Source: Fodinibius salicampi (GTDB lineage: Bacteria > Bacteroidota > Rhodothermia > Balneolales > Balneolaceae). Taken from it: 64,000 nt of DNA. Numbering within the stretch: the first letter of the stretch is position 1; each line of letters starts with the position of its first letter. The position numbers and the translations under genes were made by a program. The stretch is from NCBI RefSeq assembly GCF_039545095.1, contig NZ_BAABRS010000003.1, positions 124,001 through 188,000 on the forward strand, given 5' to 3'. A model generated the notes under the pieces. That model was not told where the DNA came from. It was given only the letters and a program-made list of their open reading frames with translations, and made no database searches. Positions 21,971 to 40,412 of the stretch are shown piece by piece.

Positions 21971-22747
21971 TTATTGACCTGTGTTTTCTGCAAACGGTTG
22001 ACTTATTTGATCACTAGCTATTTTGAGGTCTCGGGGCGTATCTACTTCAAACCATCCCCGCTGGATAGGGACATAATGCAACTCTCCCTTAAGAGCAAAA
22101 TAATTGAGCATATCTGTCATGTATGCATTTTGTAATGTTCGGCCGCTTTCCCATGCATCTGATTTATTTGCAGTAGCATACTCTTCTTTAAGACGCTGGC
22201 AACCATTTTCCGAGAATTTGATTAATCCTATAAACTGTCCCTCAATATCATCAGTGGAGGAAGGAGTTTGACCCAAAGATTCTACGCGATTACCCGCCCC
22301 TTTTTTAAACGTTTCTGCATCCGAAAGCGGATCGTCACAACGCTGCTGCCAATAAGACAACCATGCTTCGTCAGAAGCTATAACCATATCTTTCTCGCTC
22401 TGCAGAAGCTTCTGTAACACTTGCTCGGAATAAATAATATCACCATAGGCTACAATGACATCACCCGACAGGTAATTCTTGGCACAAAAAAGGCTATAAA
22501 CCATATTTGTGGTATCATATTCTGTATTATGGACTTTTGTTATTCGCGGATCTGCAATTTTCTCTTCTAGATAGCCTGTTACCACTATATTCTTTTCGAT
22601 TCCAAGCTGAGTTAATAGATCGAGTTGTCGTCCCAACAGGGGTTTGCCATCTACAGGGACCATACATTTGGGCGTGTTATTCGTCAACGGACGAAGACGG
22701 GTCCCTTTGCCAGCTGCAAGAATAATTGCTGTATAATCGTTGTTCAT
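21971..22747 (-). CDS. Nucleotidyltransferase, putative CTP:phosphoglutamine cytidylyltransferase (Cj1416-like)
   Basis: A 258-residue sugar/choline-phosphate-type nucleotidyltransferase. The signature ILAAGKGTRLRPLTNNTPKC binds the NTP, and VAYGDIIYSEQ carries the metal-binding Asp. The TTNMVYSLFCA stretch resembles LicC-type cytidylyltransferases. On its own it could use many phosphates. Here it directly follows a class I amidotransferase and a glutamine-kinase-like gene, the same trio as Campylobacter jejuni cj1416-cj1417-cj1418, which makes cytidine diphosphoramidate. I therefore propose that it activates L-glutamine phosphate with CTP. It is the last intact gene of the long reverse-strand operon, and its ATG abuts the previous stop. 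Confidence 0.72.
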   Translation of the reverse strand: MNNDYTAIILAAGKGTRLRPLTNNTPKCMVPVDGKPLLGRQLDLLTQLGIEKNIVVTGYLEEKIADPRITKVHNTEYDTTNMVYSLFCAKNYLSGDVIVAYGDIIYSEQVLQKLLQSEKDMVIASDEAWLSYWQQRCDDPLSDAETFKKGAGNRVESLGQTPSSTDDIEGQFIGLIKFSENGCQRLKEEYATANKSDAWESGRTLQNAYMTDMLNYFALKGELHYVPIQRGWFEVDTPRDLKIASDQISQPFAENTGQ

Positions 22748-23418
22748 TATCTGATAAACATTTTTTTAAAAAATTCGATATCGACACTTCTAAATTTATT
22801 ATAACGCTCTGGATGCCACATAATACCAGACAGGTTTCCATTAATATCTCGAAATCCTTCGATGTAGTTTTCACATGTGGCGGCAGGGATAAACGCACCT
22901 GACAGATTATCTTCTGATATTCCCCAATTGTGATAGGAATTTACACTCATTGAGGGGCCAAAGGTGTGCTGCCATTCTTTCTCTACAATATCAATTTTAT
23001 GGCTGGTAGCCACATGCTTGGCCGGGTCTACCCTCGATTGTGTTCCCCCGTAATAAGCATTTAAAAACTGACATCCTCTGCAAACACCAATAACCGGTTT
23101 TTGATTATTAGTGGCCCATTCGATCAGCTGCATTTCGGTTTGGTCCCGTTCAAGGGCAACATCATCTTTCTGGATCGTCTTATCCGGTATCAACTCTTTC
23201 CCCGATATCCCGATATTATTGCCGCCGGAGAGTATGATTCCTTCCACATCTAATGCGGTTATATATTCCACCGGTGCTGACAAATTATTGGGGATAGGTA
23301 TCAGCTGTACTGCAACTTCTTCGGCAAAATCATACCACACCTGATCCAAAACATCCCGCCGCTCATCGATCTCTTCACGATAAACAACACGCTGTGTTAT
23401 TCCGATCTTTTTCATCAT
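22747..23418 (-). CDS. Class I glutamine amidotransferase-like (peptidase C26), putative gamma-glutamyl-CDP-amidate hydrolase (Cj1417-like)
   Basis: A C26-family hydrolase of about 223 residues. The nucleophile elbow is VIGVCRGCQF, the oxyanion/substrate loop is GIILSGGNNIG, and the catalytic His-Glu is in IMWHPERYN. Relatives remove gamma-glutamyl groups, such as PuuD and the Campylobacter Cj1417 enzyme that frees cytidine diphosphoramidate from its glutamyl conjugate. The start at 23418 (MMKKIGITQR) overlaps the previous stop as ATGA. A longer frame to 23448 exists but would overlap more. Its place between kinase and cytidylyltransferase genes supports the phosphoramidate assignment. Confidence 0.75.
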   Translation of the reverse strand: MMKKIGITQRVVYREEIDERRDVLDQVWYDFAEEVAVQLIPIPNNLSAPVEYITALDVEGIILSGGNNIGISGKELIPDKTIQKDDVALERDQTEMQLIEWATNNQKPVIGVCRGCQFLNAYYGGTQSRVDPAKHVATSHKIDIVEKEWQHTFGPSMSVNSYHNWGISEDNLSGAFIPAATCENYIEGFRDINGNLSGIMWHPERYNKFRSVDIEFFKKMFIR

Positions 23419-26400
23419 CCCAACACCTTTATTTGTTTGTTGGTACAATTGAGCTCTACATTTCTTGCTCGTTCTAACTGTTCAAACAACTGCTCACCAC
23501 AACCAATAGCAGCAGGCAACCCAAATTCCGCACATCGGATTGTCATATGTGAAGCCGCCCCACCATATTTGGTAATTAATCCCTTAATAGAGTGTAAGAA
23601 TATCCAGTCATATCCCGGATCGGCGCCTTCGGTCATTACAATTTTATCCTTTAAATCCTTTTTATCTTTAATTTCCGAAAGTTTACAAATCGGTGCCGTA
23701 ATAACCTTTTCCGTAACATAATTAGGTTGTGATCTACGATGTTCAATGACCTCGAGATCACTGGTGGAAATAATTATATGCGGGGTCTCGATTTTATTCA
23801 CTTCTTTATACCAGTGCTTTCCTTCCTGAATTTTCTGTTTGGTGTACAACTTTGGACGTCTTTCCACACTCAGGGTATTGAGCCTCAATAAATCTTCAAT
23901 GAAAAGATATGAGAGCTCACTTCTATCGAATCCTAACTCTCCGCCCCATTTAGCCAACAACTTAAGAACTGCACTCACATTCTTAGTGAACTGAAATTTA
24001 GCATACTCACGTGCAGCGGTCGCCTCCCCTACATATTTCAACAGTTTATGAGCACTGAATCCCATCCCCATATTTTTAATTTCATTATCAATGGCTTCTA
24101 TGGTTTCCCGATTAAATGTAAAGCCCGAACCACCTGAAGCTCTGGCTTTACTCTTGGCAGACGGTGAAGAACGCTTAACCGCTGGGAAATACTGTTCCGG
24201 ATTTTCATCGTAGCTGTAAGAGGTTATGTCATAGGTACCTGGACGCAAATGACCATACTCATCGAGGAAGTCTTCCCGTGTAATCGTCCCATTCTGCACC
24301 TTTCCCATTGCTTCTACAAAACGACCTGCCACTGTTTCTATGGAATTCAAAAACTTCAATCGCTCCTGGTCAGTAATAACCTCTCGCTGCACAAATCCGC
24401 GCATCATAGATGAGGCGATAAATCCATAGCGCGCCAGAATTGAAAACGGACGTGTACCATGCTCCTTACAATCATCCAGGAGGGTGTGTATGAGTCCGGG
24501 AATTTCGTGATGAACAAAATCGTCTTCGAGCAAATGCTCCCGAAACGGGTCTAAGTCTTCGGTTTCGGAAACAAGTTCTTGCACTGATAGACCATGCTTG
24601 CCCGTCACGGCATCTTCCGTCAATACCCGCAGATGATCTTTTAACTCATCAATTTCTGAGTCATTAAATCCATCCTCTCTCAGGCGATCGAGATGGTGCT
24701 CAATATCCGGGCTATAACAGGTGATTGCGATCTCAAATTCAATCTTGTCATGCAGCTCAGGATATTGATTGAGACGCTGCAAATAATGATTTACTATCTT
24801 TTCTGCGATATCATCCCTTAAACCATCAGGAATTAAATTATTAAAACTATTCCGCACATCGATATACGGATGTCCCCCGATACAATACATAAGCTTGGCA
24901 GGAACTGGATTCCTATATCCCATTTGGGCACGGGCATTTCGCCATGTGGTATCCGTAATCAAATATTGATACAACGAAAGAGCTAATGGCTTGGGACGAA
25001 CCCCGATCATCTCGGCGGGATTCCAGTCGGGCATATCGGCCAATATTGTTGTTTCCCCTAACAAATGCGGATAATTTCTGAGCCTTGAAGATACTTTTTG
25101 CTTAGCTCCTTCCAACATCTCTGTAAAGTGAGTGTCATTGGATTGCTTATCATGAATAGTTATCGGACGCACCTGCACAATATACAACTCATCATTATGG
25201 GTCAGTACAAACTCAATATCCAATGACCGGTATCCTGTAATTCTTTCCAGCTCTTCAATAGCATCAACTACTTTGACAATACGTTCATCTTTCAGTTCAT
25301 AATCACCATTTTTATATAATGAGATCGATTTTGTATTAGCCGATGAACCTGAAGTAACGGTATCTGTGCGGCTGCTTTCATCATCATAGTTAATTACATA
25401 ATAGGGAGTCGCGTTTTCGAGATGCCTTGAAAAAGCTACCCCACTCATAGCCACATCCGTAATAAAGGGCTGTACAAGTACTTGGTTATCGGAATTGTAT
25501 TGGGCTGATCCGTTTTGTTGAAATCCTGTAATTACATCATTAATCCCTTCCTCCAGGGCATGAGTATCGGCTCCCTGAATACCAGCTACACTTAAAAATG
25601 CTCCTGCCTGCGAAGCTTCCCATGAATCTTCTTCGAGTGAACTGCTGCGTATAATGAGCTTTTCGTCTGCAAACTGCCTTTGAATTTCATTGAGCAGCGA
25701 ATCGCTCTCTTTTTCCCACTGCTCCAAGGGAAAATGTATTTGATCACAGACTTGCGACTTGCTAACAAATGGTTGTATTCGCTCAAGTGTTTCTGCTTTC
25801 GTACCAAACACAAACTGAGCCAAATCCTCCTCAGAATCGAGCTCTGCCCATAATCCACGATGATCGTGGGTGGTTATCGGGATATCCCATTGGTGATATA
25901 TAAACTGTAATAGATCGGATAAGCTATCATTATCCGACAATAATCCCCGGTCATTCTCCACCAATTGCATATATAACTTATGGACAATATGCTTTTTCAG
26001 CATTACCAATCCTGAAAACTGGGCATCTGCCTGTAGAGGACCAATTTCTTGGCGACCGATGTTTTTTAGCTGATGATCTTTGAGCTGTACCTTTTCGGCC
26101 TGCTCTTGCAGATAGCCGTGCTGAATCCGCTTTCTCCACTCCGTATCAATCCCGATTGTCACCGGACTGTTATACTGCAACAGATCATTAAAAACCCGGG
26201 GGCGGAAAATAGTATCCGCGTACGTAAGTAATACATCACCCCCCTTCCACGATTCCAATGCATAACGGAGAGAGCCGATAACATGCGTAGTGGCCCATTG
26301 GGGATTTACCGTATAATGTAAATCCGGATACTCTTCAATCACTTCCTCAATCTTATATCCTCCAATAAATGATACACAATCTCCTTCAATACCTGCCTGC

Positions 26401-26525
26401 CTTAATCCATTGATCGTCCAATCAAGTACTCGCTGCCCTTTGATGAGCTTTTCGAGCACTAACTGATCATCCGGACCTGCCAGCGTACTTTTGGTATGTG
26501 CCGCGCCAAATATAAAAACCTGCAT
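23415..26525 (-). CDS. Fusion of a nucleotidyltransferase-like domain with a PEP-synthase-like glutamine kinase (Cj1418-like)
   Basis: A 1036-residue protein. Residues 1-240 resemble a nucleotidyltransferase fold (LLTYADTIF for the Asp site), but the usual GxGTRLxP loop is absent. Residues about 270-500 are the ATP-grasp domain of PEP synthase/PPDK (LIIRSSSLEEDSWEASQAGA, VLVQPFI, LDIEFV, YIVQVRPIT). The C-terminus is the swivelling phosphohistidine domain, with GGAASHMTIRCAEFGLPAAI holding the His. This layout matches L-glutamine kinase Cj1418, which phosphorylates the glutamine amide nitrogen as the first step to phosphoramidate, except for the extra N-terminal domain. The gene lies 1 bp after the formyltransferase-like gene. 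Confidence 0.72.
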   Translation of the reverse strand: MQVFIFGAAHTKSTLAGPDDQLVLEKLIKGQRVLDWTINGLRQAGIEGDCVSFIGGYKIEEVIEEYPDLHYTVNPQWATTHVIGSLRYALESWKGGDVLLTYADTIFRPRVFNDLLQYNSPVTIGIDTEWRKRIQHGYLQEQAEKVQLKDHQLKNIGRQEIGPLQADAQFSGLVMLKKHIVHKLYMQLVENDRGLLSDNDSLSDLLQFIYHQWDIPITTHDHRGLWAELDSEEDLAQFVFGTKAETLERIQPFVSKSQVCDQIHFPLEQWEKESDSLLNEIQRQFADEKLIIRSSSLEEDSWEASQAGAFLSVAGIQGADTHALEEGINDVITGFQQNGSAQYNSDNQVLVQPFITDVAMSGVAFSRHLENATPYYVINYDDESSRTDTVTSGSSANTKSISLYKNGDYELKDERIVKVVDAIEELERITGYRSLDIEFVLTHNDELYIVQVRPITIHDKQSNDTHFTEMLEGAKQKVSSRLRNYPHLLGETTILADMPDWNPAEMIGVRPKPLALSLYQYLITDTTWRNARAQMGYRNPVPAKLMYCIGGHPYIDVRNSFNNLIPDGLRDDIAEKIVNHYLQRLNQYPELHDKIEFEIAITCYSPDIEHHLDRLREDGFNDSEIDELKDHLRVLTEDAVTGKHGLSVQELVSETEDLDPFREHLLEDDFVHHEIPGLIHTLLDDCKEHGTRPFSILARYGFIASSMMRGFVQREVITDQERLKFLNSIETVAGRFVEAMGKVQNGTITREDFLDEYGHLRPGTYDITSYSYDENPEQYFPAVKRSSPSAKSKARASGGSGFTFNRETIEAIDNEIKNMGMGFSAHKLLKYVGEATAAREYAKFQFTKNVSAVLKLLAKWGGELGFDRSELSYLFIEDLLRLNTLSVERRPKLYTKQKIQEGKHWYKEVNKIETPHIIISTSDLEVIEHRRSQPNYVTEKVITAPICKLSEIKDKKDLKDKIVMTEGADPGYDWIFLHSIKGLITKYGGAASHMTIRCAEFGLPAAIGCGEQLFEQLERARNVELNCTNKQIKVLG

Positions 26526-27346: not shown

Positions 27347-27646
27347 TTACAATTTGATTTCAGGTAACTCCATATCTGCCAAGTCCCCTATTTTTAAAGC
27401 AGTATTATAAAAGCGGATATCTTCTTGTTTTACTGCTTGCAGACAAAAACTGATCGCCAGCCGACAGTATTCATCCCGTGTTAACTCTTTCGTTTCCACT
27501 GGATTTTTTATCTCATCATCGTAGCTGAAAAACATTTTTTTATCTAATTCAAATCTTCGCATAAGCTTCTCAAATACACACAATTCAGAACTGTCACTCA
27601 TCTGCATCGGGCTTATTATGTCCATCACTTCAACCATAAATTTCAA
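27347..27646 (-). CDS. Small conserved-context protein, unknown function
   Basis: A 99-residue acidic, mostly helical protein of no recognised family. It overlaps the upstream glycerophosphotransferase-like gene by 4 bp (ATGA) and precedes the formyltransferase-like gene by 4 bp, so it is firmly in the operon. There are no membrane segments and no metal-binding motif. It may be a partner subunit of one of its neighbours. Confidence 0.65.
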   Translation of the reverse strand: MKFMVEVMDIISPMQMSDSSELCVFEKLMRRFELDKKMFFSYDDEIKNPVETKELTRDEYCRLAISFCLQAVKQEDIRFYNTALKIGDLADMELPEIKL

Positions 27647-28911
27647 CCTTTAATCATCATTTTAATGTAATTGACAATATTTTTAGAAGCGGGCTTGCCA
27701 TTGCCTGCTTTTAAGTGCTGGCCTACAAATTGAAGGCGTTCTTTTTGCATGGGATCACGTCCTTTCAACACCTGGCTTTTAACAAATACGTGAATATCTT
27801 CGGTATCTTTGGCGTGATAATGATTATCCAGCGCCATCTTACCAAATTCATGCAATCGGCTATCCACATTATCATCATGCAACAGATATAAAGCCGGCTT
27901 TGATGTGGATAAATACTCGGCCATAAACGATGAGCAATCATGAATCAAAGCATCAGAAGTTAAAAACAGATCAGTATAGTCCGACTGTTCTAACAAGCCA
28001 TTCTCTACCTCATCCCAAAACTGGTAGTAATGATCGGCTCGCACTTTACCCCATTCCTCATCTTTATAAAGCTTCTCCTTTAACATCGGATGCGGTTTAA
28101 AGGCAATTTGAATATGATCGGCATACTCACGAGCCATATCTTTAAATACAGCGTGATACTGCTTGAACGTCGAATAATTGAGCCCTTGTCCCTGTCCATC
28201 AATGGTGTGATGCGGAGCCCAGATAATTTTTTTATGGTCTGTAAACGGCCAGGGATCCGAAACGGAATCGGCAGATTCATACAAGAAATTATCCAGCTGA
28301 GGATAGCCGCTGACAACCACATTCTCTGCATTATTTCGCGCATACTTTTGAGCATACCGCTTGTGAATATCCGTCTCATAAAAATTACGCCATACCAAAT
28401 TGTGAAACGGACCGTCGTAGTTTCCTCCCTCCTTACCATTGGTCGTAAAAAAGTATGGCACATAGCATGATAAAGAATCCGTAAAGTGATGGATCCGATA
28501 TTGATCTTCGGTATAGTCAAACGGCACCGAAAAAAAGACAATATCAGGCTGGACTTTCTCCTTTATATTAATCCAGGAATCATTTCTTTCATCATAGGTC
28601 TTAATAGTCTCGTATCCCTTCGACTCCATCAGCTCGCAAGTATCATTCATTTCTTCCAACATCTGCTTTTTTCCTTCCCGCAAATAGGGACATACAAAAA
28701 CAACAGGGTTAAAAAATGGATCCTGATCCATAAGCTGATAGATACGATCATACTTCCATATGGATCGATGAATCACCTGGAAACCCACAGTAATGACAGA
28801 CTTATTTTTCAATCTTTTTAAAACCTGTTCATACCGCTGTTGATATTGCCGGATCTGATCCGCAATTGATATATCAGTATATTTTCTTTTTGCAGCAGGT
28901 ATATTGTCCAT
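27643..28911 (-). CDS. CDP-glycerol glycerophosphotransferase-family transferase
   Basis: A 422-residue protein of the TagB/TagF-type family. The C-terminal GT-B-like half shows IIWAPHHTIDGQ, IAFKPHPMLKE, SDALIHDCSSFMAEYL and KPALYLL, the conserved landmarks around the CDP-alcohol site. Family enzymes move a phospho-alcohol from CDP-glycerol or CDP-ribitol onto a glycan. No CDP-glycerol synthesis gene is visible, but a CDP-amidate pathway is. It may therefore move phosphoramidate from cytidine diphosphoramidate, which has the same CDP-X chemistry. That is inference. It follows the aminotransferase gene by 5 bp. Confidence 0.75.
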   Translation of the reverse strand: MDNIPAAKRKYTDISIADQIRQYQQRYEQVLKRLKNKSVITVGFQVIHRSIWKYDRIYQLMDQDPFFNPVVFVCPYLREGKKQMLEEMNDTCELMESKGYETIKTYDERNDSWINIKEKVQPDIVFFSVPFDYTEDQYRIHHFTDSLSCYVPYFFTTNGKEGGNYDGPFHNLVWRNFYETDIHKRYAQKYARNNAENVVVSGYPQLDNFLYESADSVSDPWPFTDHKKIIWAPHHTIDGQGQGLNYSTFKQYHAVFKDMAREYADHIQIAFKPHPMLKEKLYKDEEWGKVRADHYYQFWDEVENGLLEQSDYTDLFLTSDALIHDCSSFMAEYLSTSKPALYLLHDDNVDSRLHEFGKMALDNHYHAKDTEDIHVFVKSQVLKGRDPMQKERLQFVGQHLKAGNGKPASKNIVNYIKMMIKG

Positions 28912-28916
28912 GACTT

Positions 28917-30038
28917 CTAATAACTTTCTACCGCCTGCACTACTTGTTGCAGATCTTCGCGTTTTAATACTGGACTCATGGGCAAGCTTACCACTTCACG
29001 GTGTAACCGCTCGGTAATCGGTAATGACAAATTCTGCAGCTTAGGATAACCTGCCTGCTCATTGGGTGCTATGGGATAATGTATAGAGGCCTCCACTCCG
29101 TGTTCTTGCAAATGATTAATAAATTGATCCCGATTTTTTACCCGGACGACAAACAGATGCCACACATGGGATTCATCTTTCAGAACTGTAGTGGCATTTT
29201 GCTGCCCGGGAAGCTCTATTTTTTCATTGCTGATATTCTCCAGGTAAAAATTCGACACTTCCCGACGCCGCTGGTTATCATCCTCCAGTCCTTGTAATTT
29301 GACGCGGAGTACCCCTGCCTGCAGCTCATCCATCCGGCTGTTAAATCCTTTATGCTTATACCGATATTTCGAAGCGGCTCCATAATTTCCAAGCATCCGG
29401 CAACATTCGGCCAGTTCCTGGTTATCTGTACAGATGGCCCCGGCATCCCCCATGGCTCCCAAATTTTTGCCCGGATAAAAACTAAAGGCTGCGGCATCAC
29501 CCAGCGAGCCGATCCTTCGCCCCTTGAAACGTGCTCCGTGGGCCTGGGCAGCATCTTCTATTAACTTCAGGTTATATTTATCACATAATTTCTTAATCTT
29601 TTTCGAATAGGCATTTTGCCCATATAAATGGACAATCATAATCGCCTTCGTTCGCGGGGTGATGTTTTCTTTAATTAAATCTGGATCGATGTTATAGGTC
29701 TTCTCATCGGGTTCAACCAATACCGGTTTTAAATCCGAATCCGTGATAGCCAAGATGGAGGCGATAAACGTATTGGCTGGTACGATCACCTCATCCCCAT
29801 CTTTACAATGGCCCATCACCTGATAGGCTTTCAAAATAATTTTCAGAGCATCTAATCCACTACCAACCCCAATGGTATAATCAACTCCTATAAAATCAGA
29901 AAACTCCAGTTCAAAAGACTTTTTCTCATCCCCTAAAAGGTACCATCCCGAACTAATAACCCGGTTCAAAGAAGCCTGAATATCATCTTCGTACCTCTTG
30001 TTATAATCTTTGAGATTTAGAAATGGTACATTCTTCAT
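28917..30038 (-). CDS. fdtB: DegT/DnrJ/EryC1 aminotransferase, putative dTDP-3-oxo-6-deoxyhexose 3-aminotransferase
   Basis: A 373-residue PLP-dependent sugar aminotransferase. The PLP Lys lies in [13 protein letters not shown], the substrate Asp/His region in [14 protein letters not shown], and the N-terminal [13 protein letters not shown] is typical of the family. Together with rmlA, two FdtA/QdtA-type isomerases and an FdtC/QdtC-type acetyltransferase it would make dTDP-3-amino-3,6-dideoxyhexose (Fuc3N or Qui3N). Its ATG overlaps the acetyltransferase stop by 4 bp. The choice between Fuc3N and Qui3N cannot be read from this gene. Confidence 0.82.
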
Positions 30039-30607
30039 GCCTTAATCAGCTTTTTATTGTCTTCTATCCATTTCTGTTTGTTGCTGTCAATCCAAAACCC
30101 GTTACGTTCTTCCATCTTTGTACCATCATCATTTACCCAGCCAACAATTCTGGCTGGTTGTCCAACGACCAACGCCCTTGCCGGTACATTTTTAGTAACC
30201 AGTGCCCCCGCGCCAACCATGGCATACGGCCCAATCTCCGTACCGCCTAAAATAATCGCCCCCGCTCCAATTGAGGCATGATTATAAATATGTGTCTGCT
30301 GAAAATCCTCCGGATACTGTTTAGACCTTGGGTTTTTGTCATTAGTAAACGTCACATTGGGACCAATAAAAACCTGATCCTCAACGCGTAGTCCGTCCCA
30401 GAGCTGTACTCCACTTTTGATGGTTACCTCATCTCCCACACGCACGTTGTTTTCAATAAAAACATGGCAACTAATGTTGCACTTGCAACCGATCTGGGCA
30501 TTCTGGAGAACAACTACATATTGCCAGATATGAGTATCTGTCCCAATATCCTCAGTGTGGATATCGGATAAAGGATGTGCGTAATATGTTTTACTGAATC
30601 TTCCCAT
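30035..30607 (-). CDS. fdtC: Left-handed beta-helix acetyltransferase, FdtC/QdtC/WxcM-N type
   Basis: A 190-residue hexapeptide-repeat acyltransferase. Repeats run from about residue 15 to 155 ([40 protein letters not shown]). The catalytic His is probably in YNHASIG, and TNDKNPRSK matches QdtC/FdtC enzymes that N-acetylate dTDP-3-amino-3,6-dideoxyhexoses. It overlaps the aminotransferase gene by 4 bp, which supports consecutive steps in one pathway. The length is at the normal value. Confidence 0.82.
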
Positions 30608-30609
30608 TA

Positions 30610-31470
30610 TTAATAATGATATTTGCTTCGGGCTTTTTCTAAAGAAAAGTCAAGCGATGTTGATTCAGATTTTTCTTTTTTCCTTCTGAATATTGCAAAC
30701 AGTTTATCAATGTCTACATCAAAAAAAGCTCTAACCATCTTATGATCTACCAGCTCAAAATATTTTGATGCAATTTTAAATTTTCCTTCTAAATCGGCAT
30801 CACCTCCATCGATGTCATGGCTTTCAAAAAACAATATCCCATCCTCTCCTAAAATCTCATATATCTTTTTGATATATGATTCAAAACCCATTTCTAAGTT
30901 GCCATCGATGGTATGGTGGTTTGACAATGAAAAAACTACGTCATATTCACTTTTAAACTGATGATCTATAAAATCATTGCTGATAAATTCTATATTTTCT
31001 CTTTCTAAAAATTTCTTGGTCGCCTCCCCCATTTCAATCAAATAGGGGTTAAGTTCTATGCCATCAACTTTCTCAAAGAAATCTGATAAATAGCAGGTCA
31101 AAAACCCCGCATTACTGCCGATATCTAAAGCCACCCTATCCTTACTAAAGAATTCTTTTATCCCATACTTTTCTATTCTCTCTTCTGTTGGCTTAATCCC
31201 ATTTATTCCTATTCGCTTGTACCCCTGATAAAAATATCCATCACAATACACAATGGACTCCCACTCCACCATTTGTTTCTTTTTAAGTCTATTTAACTTT
31301 TTATGCAGCGGAATTAACTCGGGATGATCTTTTGTATAGGCTTTATCTTTTTTCTCTAATCGTTTTCTTATCTCACGATAACGTTTCACATTTTTACTTT
31401 TCCCTATATAGAATAGAGGCTCAAAGAATCGGTAGTGTCTTAGCTTCCTAACTAATTTCTTTAAATGCAT
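30610..31470 (-). CDS. SAM-dependent methyltransferase
   Basis: A class I methyltransferase, about 286 residues from ATG 31470 (MHLKKLVRKL). The SAM loop is VALDIGSNAGFLTC, followed by VDGIELN for the acidic ribose-binding residue and a post-II segment DVVFSLSNHHTIDG. A longer frame to 31590 would overlap the upstream isomerase by over 140 bp and is unlikely. It sits between a sugar isomerase and acetyltransferase, so a sugar or phosphoramidate O-methyltransferase is plausible. Campylobacter phosphoramidate is O-methylated, but by enzymes I cannot match here. Confidence 0.75.
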   Translation of the reverse strand: MHLKKLVRKLRHYRFFEPLFYIGKSKNVKRYREIRKRLEKKDKAYTKDHPELIPLHKKLNRLKKKQMVEWESIVYCDGYFYQGYKRIGINGIKPTEERIEKYGIKEFFSKDRVALDIGSNAGFLTCYLSDFFEKVDGIELNPYLIEMGEATKKFLERENIEFISNDFIDHQFKSEYDVVFSLSNHHTIDGNLEMGFESYIKKIYEILGEDGILFFESHDIDGGDADLEGKFKIASKYFELVDHKMVRAFFDVDIDKLFAIFRRKKEKSESTSLDFSLEKARSKYHY

Positions 31471-31894
31471 TTTCAATATTTCTTTTATAACGCTTAAATT
31501 CTTCTTTATCACGGATGTAATCCGTCTCTTCATATTTTTCTGAAGCAAGTACCAAGCAGATTGCTCCGGAAGAAAAATTGTGTAATTCACGCCAAAGTCC
31601 GGGTGGCATATAAACTCCGTAATAGGGACGTGATAAGTTAAATGTCTTATTGGTGGTACCGTCGCTCAACATCAGATCAAAACTGCCACTGGCCGCTATA
31701 ATCAACTGTTCAAGTTCTTTATGTGCATGACCCCCACGGTCCTCGCCTCCCGGGATATCATATAGATAATAGACTCTGTCAATAGTAAAGGGTATAATTC
31801 CTTCCCAGTTATTTATGGCCGTAATATTTCCCTTTTCATTAAACACTTTTGGCAATTGTATTAACGTCGAGTCATAAACAGTACTAGTTTGCAT
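31448..31894 (-). CDS. fdtA: dTDP-4-oxo-6-deoxyglucose 3,4-ketoisomerase-like cupin, copy 2
   Basis: A single-domain cupin of about 148 residues, related to FdtA/QdtA/WxcM-C. It has NNWEGIIPFTIDRVYYLYDI, GGEDRGGHAHKELEQLIIAA with the catalytic GHAH, and RPYYGVYMPPGLWREL. I chose the start at 31894, because AGGGGG lies 5 bases before that ATG; the open frame runs further upstream to 32068 but that would lie inside the previous gene. It is a diverged paralogue of the preceding gene. FdtA and QdtA give opposite C4 stereochemistry, so two copies could make two sugars. Confidence 0.8.
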   Translation of the reverse strand: MQTSTVYDSTLIQLPKVFNEKGNITAINNWEGIIPFTIDRVYYLYDIPGGEDRGGHAHKELEQLIIAASGSFDLMLSDGTTNKTFNLSRPYYGVYMPPGLWRELHNFSSGAICLVLASEKYEETDYIRDKEEFKRYKRNIENAFKEIS

Positions 31895-32294
31895 AAAGCC
31901 CCCTGTACTCATCAAAATCTCTGATATAATCATCTTCTGTAAATTTCCTGTCCGAAGCGTGTAAAGAGAGTGCATTTGTAGAAAAATTATCAAGATGGCG
32001 CCATTTCTTAGGCGGCAAATACAATCCATAGTAAGACCGATTAAGTCGATGACGTACTTCCTTTCCATCCGGCTGTGTGACGACTACGTCAAAACTACCG
32101 CTCAGAGCTACAATAAATTCCTGTTGTTCATAATACGCATGTCCACCACGAGTTTGTCCCCCGGGCACATCGTAGGTCCAGAAAACACGTTCTATTTCAA
32201 AGGGAATTTGATTTACATCTTCAAAAAAAGTGAGATTGCCCCTTGGGTCTTTCTCTTTGGGCAACTCTATAATTTCAACTTCAGACATAGGCAT
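31884..32294 (-). CDS. fdtA: dTDP-4-oxo-6-deoxyglucose 3,4-ketoisomerase-like cupin, copy 1
   Basis: A cupin of about 136 residues of the FdtA/QdtA family: [40 protein letters not shown] and [16 protein letters not shown]. The second His of the GHAH motif is replaced (GHAY), unlike the following paralogue, so activity may differ. The start at 32294 has AGGA six bases upstream; ATG 32288 is also possible. It overlaps the rmlA stop slightly, in keeping with tight operon packing. Confidence 0.78.
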
Positions 32295-33165
32295 GTTCTT
32301 CCTTTTGAATAAGTTGCTGCAGGTATCGGCCGTACCCACTTTTGTTTAATTCAAAAGCCATCTGGGCTAAGTCTGCCGATGCAATCCATCCCTTTCGCCA
32401 GGCAATTTCTTCGGGGCAGGCTATCTTGAGGCCTTGACGCCGCTCAATAGTTTCCACAAATTGAGATGCTTCACTCATAGCCTCGTGTGTTCCCGTATCG
32501 AGCCAGGCAAACCCTCTTCCCAAGAGTTCAACATCAAGATCTTCCCACGCTAAATACTGTTTGTTGATGTCCGTAATTTCCAACTCACCACGGTCAGATG
32601 GTTCCAATGTTTTAGCTACATCAACTACCCTGTTATCATAAAAGTACAGACCAGTAACCGCATAATTACTTTTGGGAGTATCCGGTTTCTCTTCTATGGA
32701 CTTGACTTTTCTATTTTCATCAAATTCTACAACTCCGAACCGTTCAGGATCACTTACCCAATACCCAAAAACCGTAGCGCCACTCTCACCCTGAACGGAC
32801 TTTTGCAGTTTAGGCTGGAATCCCTGACCGTAAAAAATATTATCCCCTAAAATCAGACTTACATCATCGTCTCCGATAAAGTCTTCGCCAATGGTAAAAG
32901 CCTGTGCCAATCCTTTGGGCTCAGGCTGTACTGCATACTGCAAATCAATGCCCCAGCTGGAACCATTTCCCAGCAAACTCTTAAAGCTTTCCTGGTCTTC
33001 CGGTGTCGTTATAATCAATATTTCCCGGATATCAGCCAGCATTAATACCGACAGCGGATAGTATATCATCGGCTTGTCATAAACCGGCATCAATTGTTTT
33101 GATACTGCTTTTGTTAATGGATATAAACGGGTGCCCCTACCCCCGGCAAGTATGATTCCCTTCAT
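32281..33165 (-). CDS. rmlA: Glucose-1-phosphate thymidylyltransferase
   Basis: A 294-residue RmlA/RfbA, which joins dTTP and glucose-1-phosphate to give dTDP-glucose. The N-terminal signature [28 protein letters not shown] with the metal Asp, and [20 protein letters not shown] are all present. It provides the precursor for the 3-amino-6-deoxyhexose steps downstream. The next enzyme, RmlB 4,6-dehydratase, is not in this window and must be encoded elsewhere. The gene starts 3 bp after the giant transferase stop. Confidence 0.95.
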
Positions 33166-33168
33166 TTC

Positions 33169-36100
33169 TTATTTCATTTCTTCGGTTATTACTTCAATTA
33201 TACTTTGAGCATGATTTTCTGCCGTAAACTCTGCTCCTATGATTTCACATCCACGATCCACTTTTTCCTGAAGGTCTTTCCAATCCTCTTCCAGATAGTC
33301 CACCAGGTTCTTCTCGTTAGACTTTTGATCAACAATCCCTATAGCATCTTGACCGAATAGAGTCGTTTCCAATGCTTCGTTAAAGTCTGAAATCACAAAA
33401 GAACCATTACTAATACCTTCATATACTCTAGGATGAATATTATCCAGGTAAGTGGGATTACAATTGAATACAACCTTGGAATTGCGATAAAACTGGTTGA
33501 GCTTTTGCTTACTGATTTGCCCAACCCATTCTATATTATTCTTACCTTTTAATTCAGGAATTACTTCTGCCAGTTTCTCATTTGCTGTTATAACAGCCCG
33601 GTATTTTTCGGGTAGAAAACTAAGCTGTTCTCTGAGCATCTTAATACGGCGATCTTTTCGGATCATCCAGTCAACCAGACTCAAAACTCTAAGCCAGCGA
33701 AAATCTTCTTTTGTCTTAGTGTTCCCGAATGGGTATTGGCCTCCGAATTCCGCTTGATAAAGCTCGGTAAAAATGGTCAAAATAGATGTGCGATAATTCC
33801 CAACAGCCTCATTATATAATGCCATTCCAAGGTCTTTTTGCCTTCGTCCAATTGCTTGCAACTGCTGTGCAAGGGATTCTTGATTACCAAAAAACTTGTG
33901 CAAACCCCACGGAACAAGCACATCAACAGGTCGGCTACCTATTGACTTAAGATCACCATTTTGTACCGACAAGGGAAAGAGATTGCCTATCTGTTTTACA
34001 GCAGTATTAGGAAAAATTTGCTCCATCTCTTCTTTCAATGAAGGAATTGATGTAAGGAAAACTGTTCTATCTGCGCTATTTACAATTCTGCTCCACATAA
34101 AATCGGTATAAGGGTGATCTCCTAGGAAAGCAAAAACGGGTATATCCAACAGGTCAAAAATATTTCCGGAAACTCCCATATCAGCATGTACTTTCAGGTC
34201 ATATCCCATTACGCCTGAATAGCAGGCATAGCCATCATTATCTTTTACTTTGGATAGGGCATCTAAGAATTCGGGGCCTGAAGAAGAAATAAGGCTTGTT
34301 TGGATTCCCTTTTTCTCGATTTCCTGAGCTACTTTCCGGGTCCTTATCTCATGAATACCATGAGCGCCCCCCTTCTTGCCAGGATAACCCAAATACAAAT
34401 GTTTAAGACCATTTACAGTAGTGGAGTGACCATTAGAGGTCACGGAAATAGTCGATAGTTCTTTACTATCACTTGCACTCCAAAACCACTGATTCCGTTT
34501 TATATCTAAAACCTCTTCATTTTCTTCATTAGATAATCTAATACTCTTCCAAAGTTCACTATTAAGCTCCGGATTTCCTTCCAACGCTTTAAGCATCTGT
34601 TTTTCCTGCTCTCCACTCATATAAGTCGACGGATTTTTCAGCATAATCCAGGCCTCTACAATGCGTACCGTTAGCCATTTGGGAAAATCAGTCTGTATAT
34701 CTGCCTCATCCTGCTCTTGAAGCGGGGGAAGAAAAGGCAATTCAACTGAAATATCTTTCCCGGAATTCACCGTTTCCATCAGTTCCTTCATCATTTCTAC
34801 GGCCTGGGTTCGTTTGCCTAACTGATTCATTACGCGAACATAGGTCATAGCAGCGGAGATCCCTGCCTGGCCGCTATTAAATAAGCCAATCAATTTTTGG
34901 GCAGCCGCCAGCATGGTCGCTCCTTTGCGCGACTGGGATTGAGCATCACCTGCACTTACCTCCATCTGCTCGGCAGCACAAATCATGGTTAGGGCCAGCA
35001 TATATTCTTCATGGTCTCCGGAGGCGACTTTCTCTTTCCAGCCCTCCATCAGGGAATCAGTCCATGGTAAGGTGCTCAATATTTCTTTCCATAATGTACT
35101 CTCCGGGTTTTCGGGGGTCGCCGTTTCATCGAAAATCCATCCTGCTTCTTTAAATTCATTAATTCGACTTTCTTTAATCGCGACTATATTCATTGTATAT
35201 GGGTCAACCCCTGCTTCAGGGTCATGGCCAGATAATACTCCGGGTCCCGGGATATATTCAAACAGAACATACCCCATACTAGTCAGCTGCTCTCGCAATA
35301 CCGCCAGACTTTCTTTATTCTCTCCAATAGACGCCAATATGATGGGTTCAGCTGTTTCAAGTGTTTTCGCAGCCCCCTGCAGCATCTCCGCCTCCATGCC
35401 ATTAACATCTATCTTCATGATGTGTATTTCCGGTTTCCCCGCAAAATTCCACCAGGCATCGAGAGTCGTTATCGAAACATCCTCTTCCCCATCCTTATCA
35501 ATAGTGTTAAATTCGGGGCTTTCGGCTATCTTTAACTTACCTTTACCAATTTCTTGTCCCAACCCCCGTTTTATAATCTCAAGTTGGGTAAATCCATTTT
35601 CTGACTTGCTCATCTCCAGGTACTGACTAGCTATCGCACTGGGTTCAAAAGCATATACTGCTCCCTCACCGCCTACCTTTTTTGCCATAGGCAAAGCATA
35701 AGCACCGAATGAGCCCCCCACATCTACTACCTGCATGCCGGGTTGCAGGTACTGTCGGATAAAATCCAGTTCCGGTTCAAGCCATTGCTCTTGCTCCAGC
35801 AGTACGTACGGGGTAAGCATCTTAAGATCAGAAGGCGTACAGACCGTCACACCATCTTTGGTTTCTATATAATAGGTCTTGTTTTGTTGACCATTCAAAT
35901 CCTTTGTGACTTGCTGACCATTCGCCGGTGTCTTTGTTATCATTTCTTCTGCCGCTATAGGTTGTTGTATATCCTCGGATGGTGTTTTGTTTGATTCTTC
36001 TCCTAATACAGAGTTTGTATTATCCTCGTCTTTTATCGTAATAAGAGGGGTGGTATCAGGTCCATCGGTCAATTTCTCAATCATCTCTTGAGGTAATGGT

Positions 36101-38211
36101 TCAATCTCAATGTGATCCTGCCATTCTTCCACCTCATTTTCATATCCATCTACCCACTGCTCCCACATTTTCTGGAAAGCTACCGAGAGGTGAGCTCCAA
36201 AGCGCTTACCGTCGCAAACCGGTGAATTTAGCAACTGGTTTCTAAGTTTAAACCGCCATTCCTTTAACTCTTCCAAATTGCTGGTCAAACCAATAGCCTT
36301 TCGTGTATAATCATCCCAACTGTCGACAACCCATTGCTCTAATCCCGCATTAATTAAATGTGTGGTAGAATGCCGTCCAGCGAAAGTAGGTCCGGGCATG
36401 GTAATAACGGGTACGCCCATATAAAGAGCCTCACAAGTGGTCAAACCTCCTGAATATGGCCAGGGATCAAGCGCAATATCAACCTTATTATAAGCGCCTA
36501 AATGATCATCGTGGGAAGTATGCCCCTCAAATTCGATGCGATCCTCAGCAATATCCTCTTCTTTCATAACTTCCAGGATTTGCTTTCGGAATGAGGCTGT
36601 ATCATACTGCTTGCTCTTCAGGTATAACCGACTTTGGGGCACTTGATGCATAATCTCCGCCCACTGTTTCAATACTACCTCATTAACCTTGGTAGGGTTA
36701 TTAAAACACCCAAAAGTAATATACTCATTCTTCTTAGCCGGCAGCTCCCCTACTTCCGGAGCGTAAGCCGGGGGCGTAAAGGTAATGTAATCGTCCGGCA
36801 GGCGCACTAATTTTTCGGTATAGAACGGTTCTTCGCCCTCCGGACTTTCGTGCCAGTCACTGATCAGGTAGTCGAAGGCTTTCAGTCCGGTAGTATTAAA
36901 CAATCCGCCTACCCATTTTACGATAATAGGCGCTGGTTCATGGGCCATTACCTCAAGACAATTTTCGGCTGAATGTCCAGATAAATCCACCAATATATCC
37001 AACTCGTCTTCACGAATAATTCTCTCAATGATTTTGGAGCTATATCCTACTACCGACCGCCATACTTCAATATTTTGGTGAATTCGACGGGTTACAAAAT
37101 CAAATTTATTATTAGTCGTGTAGCAGTAGATTTCAAAATGATCTTCCGACAACTGTTCCAGCGCCCCCGAAATCATCCATCCCACCGGATGGCTGCGAAA
37201 TCCTCCGGAGACAAAACCGATCTTTAACCGTTTATTCCCAGCCTTGCTATCAGGTAAAGCCCTTACTATATTATCTTGGGAAATGAACTTTTTTCCTAAC
37301 CGGAGGTGTTCTTTAAAAATATGCTCTCTATTATTTTTGGGATTGTAATGTAATCCCATCAGATAGTTAGAGATAGCTGCCAAATTACTGTTAGTATCCT
37401 CAATCGCGCGGCGGTAATGCTTTTCGGATTCTTCAAACCGACTCACTTCCTGAAGACAAAGTGCATAGTTTACTCGCAGAGCTCCGTAATCTGGCTTTTC
37501 TTTGAGTAGTTTTTCGTATAACTGTATCGCCCTGTCATAATCTCCTTCCGACTTATAAAGTTCTGCTTCACTGATTTCAATAGGTGTTAGGTCACTATAC
37601 ATATCTTTTGCTTCAGATATCCATTTATGGGCTTTCTTATAATTCCCTTTCTTTTTATAGATATCAGCCTTCTCCAGAATAGCACGTTTATGGTCTTTCT
37701 CGATCTTCAAAGTTATATCGAATAGTTTCAGAGCTTGTCCCAAATCACCCTGATCCCGGTAAATTTCACCAATTCTAAAAGCAACTCCGGCATTTTTGGG
37801 ATCCAACTGGTTGGCTTTCTGATAACACCGCAGGGCCTCATCAAGCTTGGCCTGCGAGCGGTACACCGATCCCAGATTCAGCCACGCTTTCAGGAAATCA
37901 GTTTTCCGCTCAACTGCTTCTTTCCCGTACCGCTCAGCCTTTTCGAACTGACCCAAATTATAATAATTGACCGAAAGCATATGATAGGTTTCCGGTTCTA
38001 CTGATCCTCTCTTAATGGCCTTTTCAAAATACTTGGCGGATGATTCATATTCCGCTTTCTGGGAAAGCGCGATACCCATCATATGGTTGGGTATCCATGC
38101 ATATTCCGGTGTACTATTATGATTTCGCAACAAAGGACGCAGTTCGGCAATAGCCTGATTGGGCTTTTGCCACTTTAAATATTTTTGGGCCTGTTCAATT
38201 TTTTTCTTCAC
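33169..38211 (-). CDS. Giant TPR / O-GlcNAc-transferase-like / FkbM / glycosyltransferase fusion
   Basis: A 1680-residue cytoplasmic protein. Residues 1-300 are tandem TPRs (NLGSVYRSQAKLDEALRCYQ). From about 330 to 690 is an OGT/SPINDLY (GT41) catalytic domain: IGFVSGGFRSHPVGW, ITFGCFNNPTKVNEVV, DIALDPWPYSGGLTTCEALY and GRHSTTHLINAGL. From about 810 to 1000 is an FkbM-type methyltransferase (VVDVGGSFGAYALPMAK, IMKIDVNGMEAEML). From about 1270 to the end is a second glycosyltransferase-like region (HLYLGYPGKKGGAHGIHE, NPTYLDNIHPRVYEGISNGS). It is the first gene of the reverse-strand glycan operon. A flagellin O-glycosyltransferase that also methylates and extends the glycan is the likely role, by inference. 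Confidence 0.85.
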   Translation of the reverse strand: MKKKIEQAQKYLKWQKPNQAIAELRPLLRNHNSTPEYAWIPNHMMGIALSQKAEYESSAKYFEKAIKRGSVEPETYHMLSVNYYNLGQFEKAERYGKEAVERKTDFLKAWLNLGSVYRSQAKLDEALRCYQKANQLDPKNAGVAFRIGEIYRDQGDLGQALKLFDITLKIEKDHKRAILEKADIYKKKGNYKKAHKWISEAKDMYSDLTPIEISEAELYKSEGDYDRAIQLYEKLLKEKPDYGALRVNYALCLQEVSRFEESEKHYRRAIEDTNSNLAAISNYLMGLHYNPKNNREHIFKEHLRLGKKFISQDNIVRALPDSKAGNKRLKIGFVSGGFRSHPVGWMISGALEQLSEDHFEIYCYTTNNKFDFVTRRIHQNIEVWRSVVGYSSKIIERIIREDELDILVDLSGHSAENCLEVMAHEPAPIIVKWVGGLFNTTGLKAFDYLISDWHESPEGEEPFYTEKLVRLPDDYITFTPPAYAPEVGELPAKKNEYITFGCFNNPTKVNEVVLKQWAEIMHQVPQSRLYLKSKQYDTASFRKQILEVMKEEDIAEDRIEFEGHTSHDDHLGAYNKVDIALDPWPYSGGLTTCEALYMGVPVITMPGPTFAGRHSTTHLINAGLEQWVVDSWDDYTRKAIGLTSNLEELKEWRFKLRNQLLNSPVCDGKRFGAHLSVAFQKMWEQWVDGYENEVEEWQDHIEIEPLPQEMIEKLTDGPDTTPLITIKDEDNTNSVLGEESNKTPSEDIQQPIAAEEMITKTPANGQQVTKDLNGQQNKTYYIETKDGVTVCTPSDLKMLTPYVLLEQEQWLEPELDFIRQYLQPGMQVVDVGGSFGAYALPMAKKVGGEGAVYAFEPSAIASQYLEMSKSENGFTQLEIIKRGLGQEIGKGKLKIAESPEFNTIDKDGEEDVSITTLDAWWNFAGKPEIHIMKIDVNGMEAEMLQGAAKTLETAEPIILASIGENKESLAVLREQLTSMGYVLFEYIPGPGVLSGHDPEAGVDPYTMNIVAIKESRINEFKEAGWIFDETATPENPESTLWKEILSTLPWTDSLMEGWKEKVASGDHEEYMLALTMICAAEQMEVSAGDAQSQSRKGATMLAAAQKLIGLFNSGQAGISAAMTYVRVMNQLGKRTQAVEMMKELMETVNSGKDISVELPFLPPLQEQDEADIQTDFPKWLTVRIVEAWIMLKNPSTYMSGEQEKQMLKALEGNPELNSELWKSIRLSNEENEEVLDIKRNQWFWSASDSKELSTISVTSNGHSTTVNGLKHLYLGYPGKKGGAHGIHEIRTRKVAQEIEKKGIQTSLISSSGPEFLDALSKVKDNDGYACYSGVMGYDLKVHADMGVSGNIFDLLDIPVFAFLGDHPYTDFMWSRIVNSADRTVFLTSIPSLKEEMEQIFPNTAVKQIGNLFPLSVQNGDLKSIGSRPVDVLVPWGLHKFFGNQESLAQQLQAIGRRQKDLGMALYNEAVGNYRTSILTIFTELYQAEFGGQYPFGNTKTKEDFRWLRVLSLVDWMIRKDRRIKMLREQLSFLPEKYRAVITANEKLAEVIPELKGKNNIEWVGQISKQKLNQFYRNSKVVFNCNPTYLDNIHPRVYEGISNGSFVISDFNEALETTLFGQDAIGIVDQKSNEKNLVDYLEEDWKDLQEKVDRGCEIIGAEFTAENHAQSIIEVITEEMK

Positions 38212-38656
38212 CGGCTAAACTGTCTATTAGCGTTCAGTTTGGTATCACACCCTTTCTATTCGCAAATAAAATGCCAGCACCTATCAACGCTCCTAAATAA
38301 CTTCTAAAGAGATACATGCGTATTTATTTTAGTTGGTAGACGGAAATAATTTCTTGCAAGAGGGAATAATTAGCAGGACAAATGAAATACATTAAAGCTT
38401 GACGACCTCTGGTTATACTCACTTCATCATCAAAATAGATCGAACAGCGGATCTATATAATATGAAATGACCTCAGCTACAATAAGCAGTATAATTACCG
38501 AAATCTGGCATATTCTTTGAGTGTATTTATATACCGGGTATCATGTACATTTAGTATTAAAAACTCCTAATGAGGATTTTATTTAAGTTTTTCCGGTAAA
38601 AGCCGATAACTACAGATACTTGGTATTGAAAAATATTCTTGTAACCCAATAGACCT
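38212..38656. other. Divergent control region between the glycan operon and fliS
   Basis: This 445-bp stretch separates two divergent operons. The right part holds a near-consensus sigma-28 promoter for fliS. I could not find a clear promoter for the glycan operon on the left side; only a weak CGATAA-like match is visible near 38300. Confidence 0.5.
38583..38609 (+). promoter_or_regulatory. Sigma-28 promoter of fliS-fliD
   Basis: TTAAGTTT (38583-38590), an 11-bp spacer and GCCGATAA (38602-38609) form the best FliA match in the window, with a perfect -10 box. It is 47 bp before the fliS start. Confidence 0.85.
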
Positions 38657-38983
38657 ATGCAGAATCCACAAAAAGTTTATCAACGACAAGCCGTAAAGAA
38701 TGCCTCCCCCATGCAGCTGGTTGTCAAACTGTATGACCTAGTACTACAGGCTACATACCGCGAGGATGAAGAGCGTGTTAAAGATATTCTTGCAACACTT
38801 ATAGAAAGTTTAAATTTTGATTATGAGCCTGCTGATGAGTTATTTCAGCTTTATAAATATTGTCAGGATCTTGCCCGAAAAAAGGAATATGGAGAAATCA
38901 GGGAGATACTGGAACCTCTGCGGGATGCCTGGGATCAGGCTGCAAACAAAGAAAAGGGAAGTAGAAACGGTATCTCGGCTTAA
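38657..38983 (+). CDS. fliS: Flagellin export chaperone FliS
   Basis: A 108-residue helical protein that matches FliS: an N-terminal Tyr-containing segment (QKVYQRQAV), NASPMQLVVKLYDLVLQATY corresponding to the first chaperone helix, and further amphipathic helices. FliS binds the flagellin C-terminus in the cytosol and hands it to FlhA for export. It is preceded by a strong sigma-28 promoter and followed by fliD after 25 bp. It is slightly shorter than Enterobacterial FliS. Confidence 0.75.
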   Translation: MQNPQKVYQRQAVKNASPMQLVVKLYDLVLQATYREDEERVKDILATLIESLNFDYEPADELFQLYKYCQDLARKKEYGEIREILEPLRDAWDQAANKEKGSRNGISA

Positions 38984-39008: not shown

Positions 39009-40412
39009 TTGGCCATGAATTCTATTAGCAGTCTTATACAGCAAACCAATCCCTACGAGCAGTTTGTACAACAGCTGGTAATGATCGAAAGCCAAAAAAA
39101 GTTCAAGCTGGAAGATCAGCGAAGTACGCTAAACAAACAGCAGTCGGCCTTAAGTAACGTCAGCTCTGTTATCTCTAATTTTACTAATAAAATTGACGAA
39201 CTTAACAGTGCCACTTCAAATAGCTTTAATCCGCTAAAAGCTACTTCAAGTGACGAAAGCGTAGTGCGAGTAGATTCCATCTCGGGGATGACCGAGCCAA
39301 ATAATTATGACATTACGGTTAACCGGAAAGCAACCAAAGATATTATGCTTTCGAATGTCATAGACGGAACTGCAACAGATCTTGCTGGATTTGGAGACGG
39401 ATCAGTAGATATCACTATTGGGGACAAAACCGAAACGATTTCAGTCACGACTACTAATGATGACGGGACCACCAAAACGAACCAGGAAGTTTTGGAGTCA
39501 TTTTCTACTGCTATCAATGATTTATTAGGTGAAAAGTCGGACAGCGACGTTTTCCAGATCGATAATGACGGCAATGTTCAGCTTTCTATTAAAAGTACTG
39601 AAACCGGCTATGATGAACGCATACAGTTCAGTAATGCTAGTGGGGTTCTCGCAGAAGTCACCGGTAATATGACACACCTCGAAACCAATACCCAAAATCT
39701 GGATTCCGAATTCACGGTTGATGGAATTACCTTCACCCGAGGACAGAATACTGTAGAAAATGCCATTTCGGGCATGACCTTCACGCTTCTGGATGATCCG
39801 GGTACGCAGGAACAAATTTCTGTAACGAAAGATGTAGAAACAGCCAAAGATAATATTGACGATTTCATCTCTACCTTTAATGAGATGAATAAGAAAATCC
39901 GAAACAATACCTTTATTAATGGAGAAACCGGGAATAAAGGTCCCCTGCAGGGAATGCGATCTATCCGAAACCTGACAATTAACTTGCGCCAAACGGCACT
40001 GACGGATATGACTGCAGCAGCAGATGGCGAACTGGATAATCTGATGGATATTGGGCTTGGATTTGAAAATGACGGAACCATGAAGATTGAAGACGCCGAC
40101 CTTCTTGAAAAAGCACTCACGGATCGCCCGGAAGAAGTTCAAAAACTTTTTACCGATGATACTTCACCAGTCATGGCTATGTACAATCAGGCGGAAATTT
40201 ATACCCAGACCAATGGAGTCATCTCTTCGCTGGAAAGCGGGCTGGACCAAAAGATAGACTTCATTGATAATCGAATCGATTCTGAAAACCGATACCTGGA
40301 AAAATATGAGGAGCGCCAGCGGCAAGAATTTGCTGAACTCCAACAAATTCAGGATGATGGACAGCGACAGTTTAATGCAATCATGAATTATCAATCATCC
40401 TTGGGCTTCTAA
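39009..40412 (+). CDS. fliD: Flagellar filament cap protein FliD (HAP2)
   Basis: A 467-residue filament cap that folds exported flagellin onto the growing tip. The N-terminal FliD domain (SISSLIQQTNPYEQFVQQLV, then SALSNVSSVISNF) and the C-terminal coiled-coil domain (SGLDQKIDFIDNRIDSENRY ending at FNAIMNYQSSLGF) are both present. The middle has the FliD NEIF-like region (GITFTRGQNTVENAISGMTF). The length is normal. It lies in the fliS operon and shares its sigma-28 promoter. Confidence 0.92.
   Translation: MAMNSISSLIQQTNPYEQFVQQLVMIESQKKFKLEDQRSTLNKQQSALSNVSSVISNFTNKIDELNSATSNSFNPLKATSSDESVVRVDSISGMTEPNNYDITVNRKATKDIMLSNVIDGTATDLAGFGDGSVDITIGDKTETISVTTTNDDGTTKTNQEVLESFSTAINDLLGEKSDSDVFQIDNDGNVQLSIKSTETGYDERIQFSNASGVLAEVTGNMTHLETNTQNLDSEFTVDGITFTRGQNTVENAISGMTFTLLDDPGTQEQISVTKDVETAKDNIDDFISTFNEMNKKIRNNTFINGETGNKGPLQGMRSIRNLTINLRQTALTDMTAAADGELDNLMDIGLGFENDGTMKIEDADLLEKALTDRPEEVQKLFTDDTSPVMAMYNQAEIYTQTNGVISSLESGLDQKIDFIDNRIDSENRYLEKYEERQRQEFAELQQIQDDGQRQFNAIMNYQSSLGF

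Follow-up and report, generated by a model that had tools for sequence, protein, structure and literature searches.

Protein glycans are normally made by separate enzymes. In Caulobacter crescentus, the flagellin O-glycosyltransferase FlmG combines TPR with a glycosyltransferase, and two-hybrid assays show flagellin binding by its TPR domain (PMC7591256). In the flagellin islands of enterobacteria, according to a 2016 survey, nearly all GT41 proteins also have a methyltransferase domain (PMC4875605).

Here, we describe a modular protein encoded by a gene that adjoins flagellar genes in the salt-loving bacterium Fodinibius salicampi. The window, i.e. the whole stretch of 64 000 nt that was analysed, includes a single unbroken ORF of 1680 codons in the order TPR, GT41, linker, FkbM, adaptor and GT-B (Table 1), and the genome holds one full-length copy. 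The extent and length of the gene had been given exactly in an earlier note, which left the strand (minus) unstated; the + strand translation of the same interval is full of stops. A frameshift, a lost stop codon or an assembly error as the source of the fusion was rejected because 27 genomes of the order have the same single-ORF chassis. A search for paralogues in the genome of the window gave only TPR-only matches, and the FkbM domain of the fusion protein is the sole one there.

Table 1. The fusion gene, its domains and its neighbours (positions in the window)
Feature	Position	Strand	Basis or remark
Modular flagellin glycosylation protein (predicted), whole gene	33169..38211	-	1680 aa, GTG start
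TPR superhelix, residues 1-280	37372..38211	-	Pfam TPR families
GT41 catalytic domain, SPINDLY/OGT-like, residues 281-700	36112..37371	-	PF13844; PDB matches; conservation
Variable linker, residues 701-800	35812..36111	-	Lowest identity in chassis pairwise profiles
Core FkbM-type methyltransferase domain, residues 801-1010	35182..35811	-	PF05050, TIGR01444, motifs, Foldseek
Helical adaptor, residues 1031-1235 (about)	34507..35121	-	Structure model; without Pfam family
GT-B glycosyltransferase tail, residues 1269-1680 (about)	33172..34407	-	PF13524; the exchanged module
Sigma54-type -24/-12 site	38262..38276	-	TGGCATTTTATTTGC; 0 mismatches, about 50 bp upstream of GTG
fliS, divergent neighbour	38657..38983	+	PF02561
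fliD	39009..40412	+	PF02465, PF07195
rmlA, glucose-1-phosphate thymidylyltransferase, first downstream sugar gene	32281..33165	-	TIGR01207 above cut-off
FdtA-like (WxcM C-terminal) ketoisomerase	31884..32339	-	PF05523
Second FdtA-like ORF	31448-32068	-	Judged from sequence
Hexapeptide acyltransferase	30035-30607	-	
DegT/FdtB-like sugar aminotransferase	28917..30038	-	
CDP-glycerol glycerophosphotransferase-like protein	27643-28911	-	
Small ORF	27347-27646	-	
Formyltransferase-like protein	26527-27342	-	
Phosphoramidate-type genes	21971..26525	-	Glutamine-kinase-like (23415), gamma-glutamyl-CDP-amidate-hydrolase-like (22747), nucleotidyltransferase (21971)
Flagellin gene	19690-20649	-	PF00669, PF00700
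Flagellin gene	18125-19138	-	PF00669, PF00700

Pfam and NCBIfam profiles for TPR, GT41, FkbM and PF13524 all matched above their curated cut-offs. Following the TPR N-terminus, the GT41 domain is identified by PF13844 (Glyco_transf_41; E 2.1e-39, 135.7 bits, cut-off 25), and, when compared with PDB sequences, the first 700 residues matched plant SPINDLY (7y4i, 2.9e-96), the TPR-GT41 protein 5djs and human OGT. Five residues that align with the OGT/SPY active site (H341, K508, H567, T592 and E594) are invariant in 41/41 GT41 sequences, and the position that we match to H901 of OGT varies (H in 12, L in 29). The tail matched PF13524 (Glyco_trans_1_2; E 3.5e-12, 46.9 bits, cut-off 25). The structure prediction proposed in the earlier note gave, for residues 800-1680 (mean pLDDT 79.7), a methyltransferase fold, a helical domain, a joint of low confidence ahead of the tail (residues ~1229-1266, pLDDT<50) and a GT-B fold, the last with VIA Z about 21 to PimA, GlgM and BshA (for PimA, Z 21.4, rmsd 4.7 over 308 residues). 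The domains named in that note are thus borne out by profile matches, PDB sequence matches and structure comparison, though the helical adaptor of ~200 aa between FkbM and GT-B had been overlooked.

Modelled alone, the adaptor reached a pLDDT of 90.5. A TPR_19 match was seen in 3/25 members (best 4.4e-4), the best structural matches were mostly TPR proteins with a Z of 8-10, which lies below the trust level for helical domains, and the fold search returned no confident relative; the adaptor is possibly TPR-like. It is present in 27 genomes of the order, every one of them FliD+, and was found only in chassis proteins, in the second genes related to them and in two partial ORFs.

The distribution of the protein was surveyed in 128 genomes of the order Balneolales, 47 FliD+ and 81 FliD-. 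The TPR-GT41 chassis was found in 38/47 FliD+ genomes compared to 1/81 FliD- genomes, and the lone FliD- carrier (G077) has a distant GT41 protein, a 29 % homologue. In almost every locus, the chassis gene adjoins fliS-fliD and flagellins are often near, the exceptions being in G396 (about 6 kb off) and G434 (on another contig). Nine FliD+ genomes lack a chassis protein, which is therefore not needed for flagella in general, and in most flagellated genomes without it a flagellin lies next to fliS. The proteins differ in size and content, ranging from TPR-GT41 only (about 690-700 aa, L118-L120), in genomes that do without any tail, through TPR-GT41 plus a tail-type FkbM (974 aa, L110-L113) or a kinase-like module (1147 aa, L117), to those with the core FkbM and adaptor (1410-2068 aa). 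This last form is present in 27 of the 47 FliD+ genomes, so that, in a survey of flagellated relatives such as the earlier note suggested, the fusion is common; together with the GT41-methyltransferase proteins already reported from enterobacteria (PMC4875605), this count contradicts the opinion that the fusion is unusual. The link to flagellin made in the same note is supported by the co-occurrence with FliD, the fliS-fliD adjacency and the sigma54-type site upstream.

A profile scan of contigs, which used one peptide pattern and is thus a weak test of absence elsewhere, yielded 17 loci in records titled Fodinibius, Aliifodinibius, Gracilimonas, Balneola, Balneolaceae, Balneolales, Balneolia or Bacteroidetes; it also gave one short record titled Bacteroidales (L067). 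A contig scan with the C-terminal half alone gave no matches, and a plasmid search returned no record covering 80 % of the chassis. Two genomes of another family in the same phylum (G098:C71 and G044:C79, family f25) encode further giant GT41 proteins, their open frames measuring 2878 and 3517 aa and having GT41 matches, three of them in the G098 frame.

As claimed in the earlier note, the fusion gene heads a glycan operon next to fliS-fliD: rmlA starts 3 bp past its stop codon, the compact minus-strand operon, which also holds a methyltransferase gene, ends near the two flagellin genes, and a gap of 445 bp separates the fusion gene from the divergent fliS-fliD. One of the two zero-mismatch sigma54-type matches in the whole window is the site upstream of the fusion gene. 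Sites of this type (9 or 10/10 positions) were present in 18 of 37 upstream regions from the family, where 0.245 were expected from shuffles, and the opposite strand of the same 37 regions includes 11, as expected if fliS-fliD is also sigma54-driven. Ahead of fliS, a one-mismatch site at 38506-38520 (+) faces that of the fusion gene. Further along, between flgL and a sigma54 activator, lies a gene (43031-44383, -) for a TPR protein with a possible GT2-like N-terminus, which most flagellated loci keep at this place, even some that lack the GT41 chassis. In the phosphoramidate-type trio, the glutamine-kinase-like gene matched NF004508 (908 bits, above cut-off) and the putative gamma-glutamyl-CDP-amidate hydrolase matched NF045546 at 104.6 bits, under the cut-off of 250. 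The trio resembles the Campylobacter MeOPN pathway (Cj1416-Cj1418), to which it is tentatively assigned, and here belongs to an operon for flagellin glycan, not to a capsule locus.

The C-terminal modules fall into several types, assigned using Pfam: GT-B PF13524 (the window protein, L038 and L105), GT2 plus PF13524 (L037, L100 and L102), a second FkbM (L039, L041, L042, L046, L109 and L116, with another FkbM type in L050), GT2-like plus methyltransferase (L040, L044 and L101), GT56-like (L043, L049 and L051), GT2 plus a part without assignment (L045), and kinase-like with or without methyltransferase (L047, L048, L103 and L104). The closest chassis relative of the window protein, that of Fodinibius roseus, shares 77 % identity in GT41, 78 % in FkbM and 76 % in the adaptor, and the identity breaks at residue ~1230, with the tails sharing about 32 %. 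The window tail shares 41 % identity with the tail of L105, from a different family, and 44-46 % with a second FkbM-adaptor-GT gene in F. halophilus-type genomes. Likewise, L047 and L048 share 90 % identity in GT41 and 26 % in their tails, and the L047 tail is 50 % identical to that of L104 from another family. Hence, judged by these comparisons, relatives keep the front and exchange the C-terminal module.

On the chassis tree, 19 changes of tail type were counted, the minimum being 13, and AU tests, which assume groups named in advance, rejected a single clade for the GT-B-tailed members (p-AU 5.6e-8) and for those with a second FkbM as tail (p-AU 9e-34). Tail types are also clustered on this tree (0/200 shuffles were as low), so exchange is frequent yet not unlimited. 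A tandem second gene encoding FkbM-adaptor-GT-B without TPR-GT41 was seen in two loci (L037:4807-7551 and L102:1279-3999); recombination of such a gene with the main gene would give the architecture found in the window.

The genes downstream appear to follow the tail. At least five downstream genes (62-77 % identity) are common to the window and L038, which has the same tail type in another genus, whereas none are shared with F. roseus. For pairs with GT41 identity of at least 70 %, a downstream gene is common to 6/7 pairs with the same tail and 0/19 with different tails, though these pairs are few and non-independent, and the downstream stretches are unequal in length. As the pairs are non-independent and contigs end at different distances, the exchange of tail and linked sugar genes as a cassette is suggestive, not conclusive.

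In the reading that we favour, with a probability of roughly 0.7, an enzyme of the FlmG type for O-glycosylation of flagellin in the cytoplasm has been enlarged to a chain of several enzymes, with the tail and its sugar genes exchanged. Substrate, reaction order and donor sugars we infer as follows. The TPR arm, by analogy with FlmG, is a probable flagellin-binding arm that would hold newly made flagellin, the two flagellins of the window being the likely substrates and FliD, FlgK and FlgL possible further targets. The GT41 domain, given its conserved residues, would put the first sugar on Ser/Thr. The C-terminal module, tethered by the adaptor and a probably flexible joint, would then extend that sugar by a further group before flagellin is released; for the GT-B tail in the window, the donor would probably be a dTDP-3-amino-3,6-dideoxyhexose-type sugar made by the downstream operon. 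In most members, the core FkbM domain probably binds SAM, but its activity is putative and its role may be chiefly that of a structural spacer. The front would be inherited with the flagellar locus across flagellated Balneolales, and exchange of the tail and sugar genes would alter the flagellar glycan. The earlier note held that the chain starts, extends and methylates a glycan; starting and extending are plausible because the GT41 active-site residues are kept and the tail is GT-B-folded.

Methylation is another matter. The core FkbM domain is recognised by PF05050 (E 9.5e-14, 52.3 bits, cut-off 22.7) and TIGR01444 (E 4.4e-19, 69.4 bits, cut-off 37.7), and the Foldseek matches of the model include the FkbM structure 2py6. 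Glu is the usual residue in the FkbM-family motif (K-D-x-E-G), as it is in the separate tail-type FkbM modules seen here, which keep KIDTEG. The window protein has KIDVNGMEAE, which departs from DxEGxE, and Asn replaces this Glu (DxNG) in 30/32 of the chassis FkbM domains. The core domain has degenerated in L049 and L051, has lost a part in L050, and is absent from L110-L113 and L117. Methylation by this domain is doubtful because of the DxNG found in 30/32 and because a few members have it in eroded or partly deleted form, and one of the activities claimed for the chain may, given the altered motif, be absent.

One alternative, which we rate at just under an even chance, is that the core FkbM domain and the adaptor form a catalytically silent scaffold, and that the enzyme adds the first sugar and the tail's addition only. 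The uniform replacement of the Glu fits with this, as do the retention of the adaptor in some lineages where FkbM decays and the restriction of the adaptor noted above. However, the glycine-rich SAM loop (VVDVGGSFG in the window protein) is strongly conserved in most members, which argues for a retained ligand, and Asn could still support catalysis.

The same conservation, with the FEP motif kept in most members and the D, G and E of D-x-N-G-x-E also kept, speaks for a second and more doubtful alternative, the one proposed in the earlier note: an enzyme with three activities, in which a single flagellin glycan is started by GT41, extended by GT-B and methylated by the core FkbM domain. FkbM methyltransferases are known from flagellin islands (PMC4875605, PMC5109656), which also speaks for it. 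Against this stand the Glu to Asn change, the decay or absence of the core domain in the loci listed, and the presence in several members of a second FkbM as tail with the usual motif, and we regard three activities as a weaker proposition than a silent core.

Genes such as rmlA, fdtA/B and those for glycerophosphotransferase-like proteins are also found in O-antigen loci. A different target (LPS, exopolysaccharide or cytoplasmic proteins besides flagellin), with the fliS adjacency incidental, would accommodate these kinds of sugar gene and the distant GT41 protein in G077, but is very improbable given the 38/47 compared to 1/81 distribution, the divergent fliS-fliD pair, the nearby flagellins and the sigma54-type sites.

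Returning to the flagellin O-glycosylation enzyme with an exchangeable tail, an unlikely, more speculative version of it is an assembly line with an evolved swap site, in which a dead FkbM domain would serve as a docking or homology segment, recombination in FkbM-adaptor (e.g. between the tandem genes with FkbM and adaptor in F. halophilus-type genomes) would exchange the finishing enzyme and sugar cassette, and the flagellar surface would be diversified against phages or predators.

In these proteins, a starting enzyme and a changeable finishing enzyme share one chain with a constant front. As the front is constant and the tail changeable, natural domain-swap experiments can be read from genomes, which show the pairings of tails with sugar genes and the places where modules join. 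A practical test of tethered, stepwise flagellin glycosylation becomes possible, join points for glycoengineering are suggested, and variation of the flagellar surface is tied to exchange of one protein module plus its sugar genes.

The literature search found no report of the fusion protein in Balneolaeota and no description of the adaptor, the exchangeable third module or the linked cassette. Like FlmG, which modifies flagellin in the cytoplasm, the protein has an N-terminal TPR arm followed by a glycosyltransferase domain and is flagella-linked, but FlmG is 596 aa, is without the methyltransferase, adaptor and second glycosyltransferase, and uses pseudaminic acid (PMC7591256). In the operon described here, we recognised no genes for making nonulosonic acids. 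SPINDLY, OGT and the bacterial GT41 proteins 5djs and XcOGT share the TPR-GT41 layout and the aligned active-site residues but are without a C-terminal methyltransferase or second glycosyltransferase module. On Azospirillum lipoferum plasmid p6, TPR-GT41 and FkbM genes are adjacent in the same order, but as two unfused ORFs and without flagellar genes in the stretch seen. The enterobacterial proteins come nearer, with a SPINDLY-type GT41 and an AdoMet methyltransferase in one chain beside flagellin genes, and are set apart by description, the part of the source considered describing no adaptor, exchangeable third module or linked cassette (PMC4875605). As enterobacterial GT41 proteins with a methyltransferase domain are reported there, the principle of the fusion was already known. 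The finding is real and more widespread than the earlier note supposed, and the exchange of the tail is more interesting than the fusion itself.
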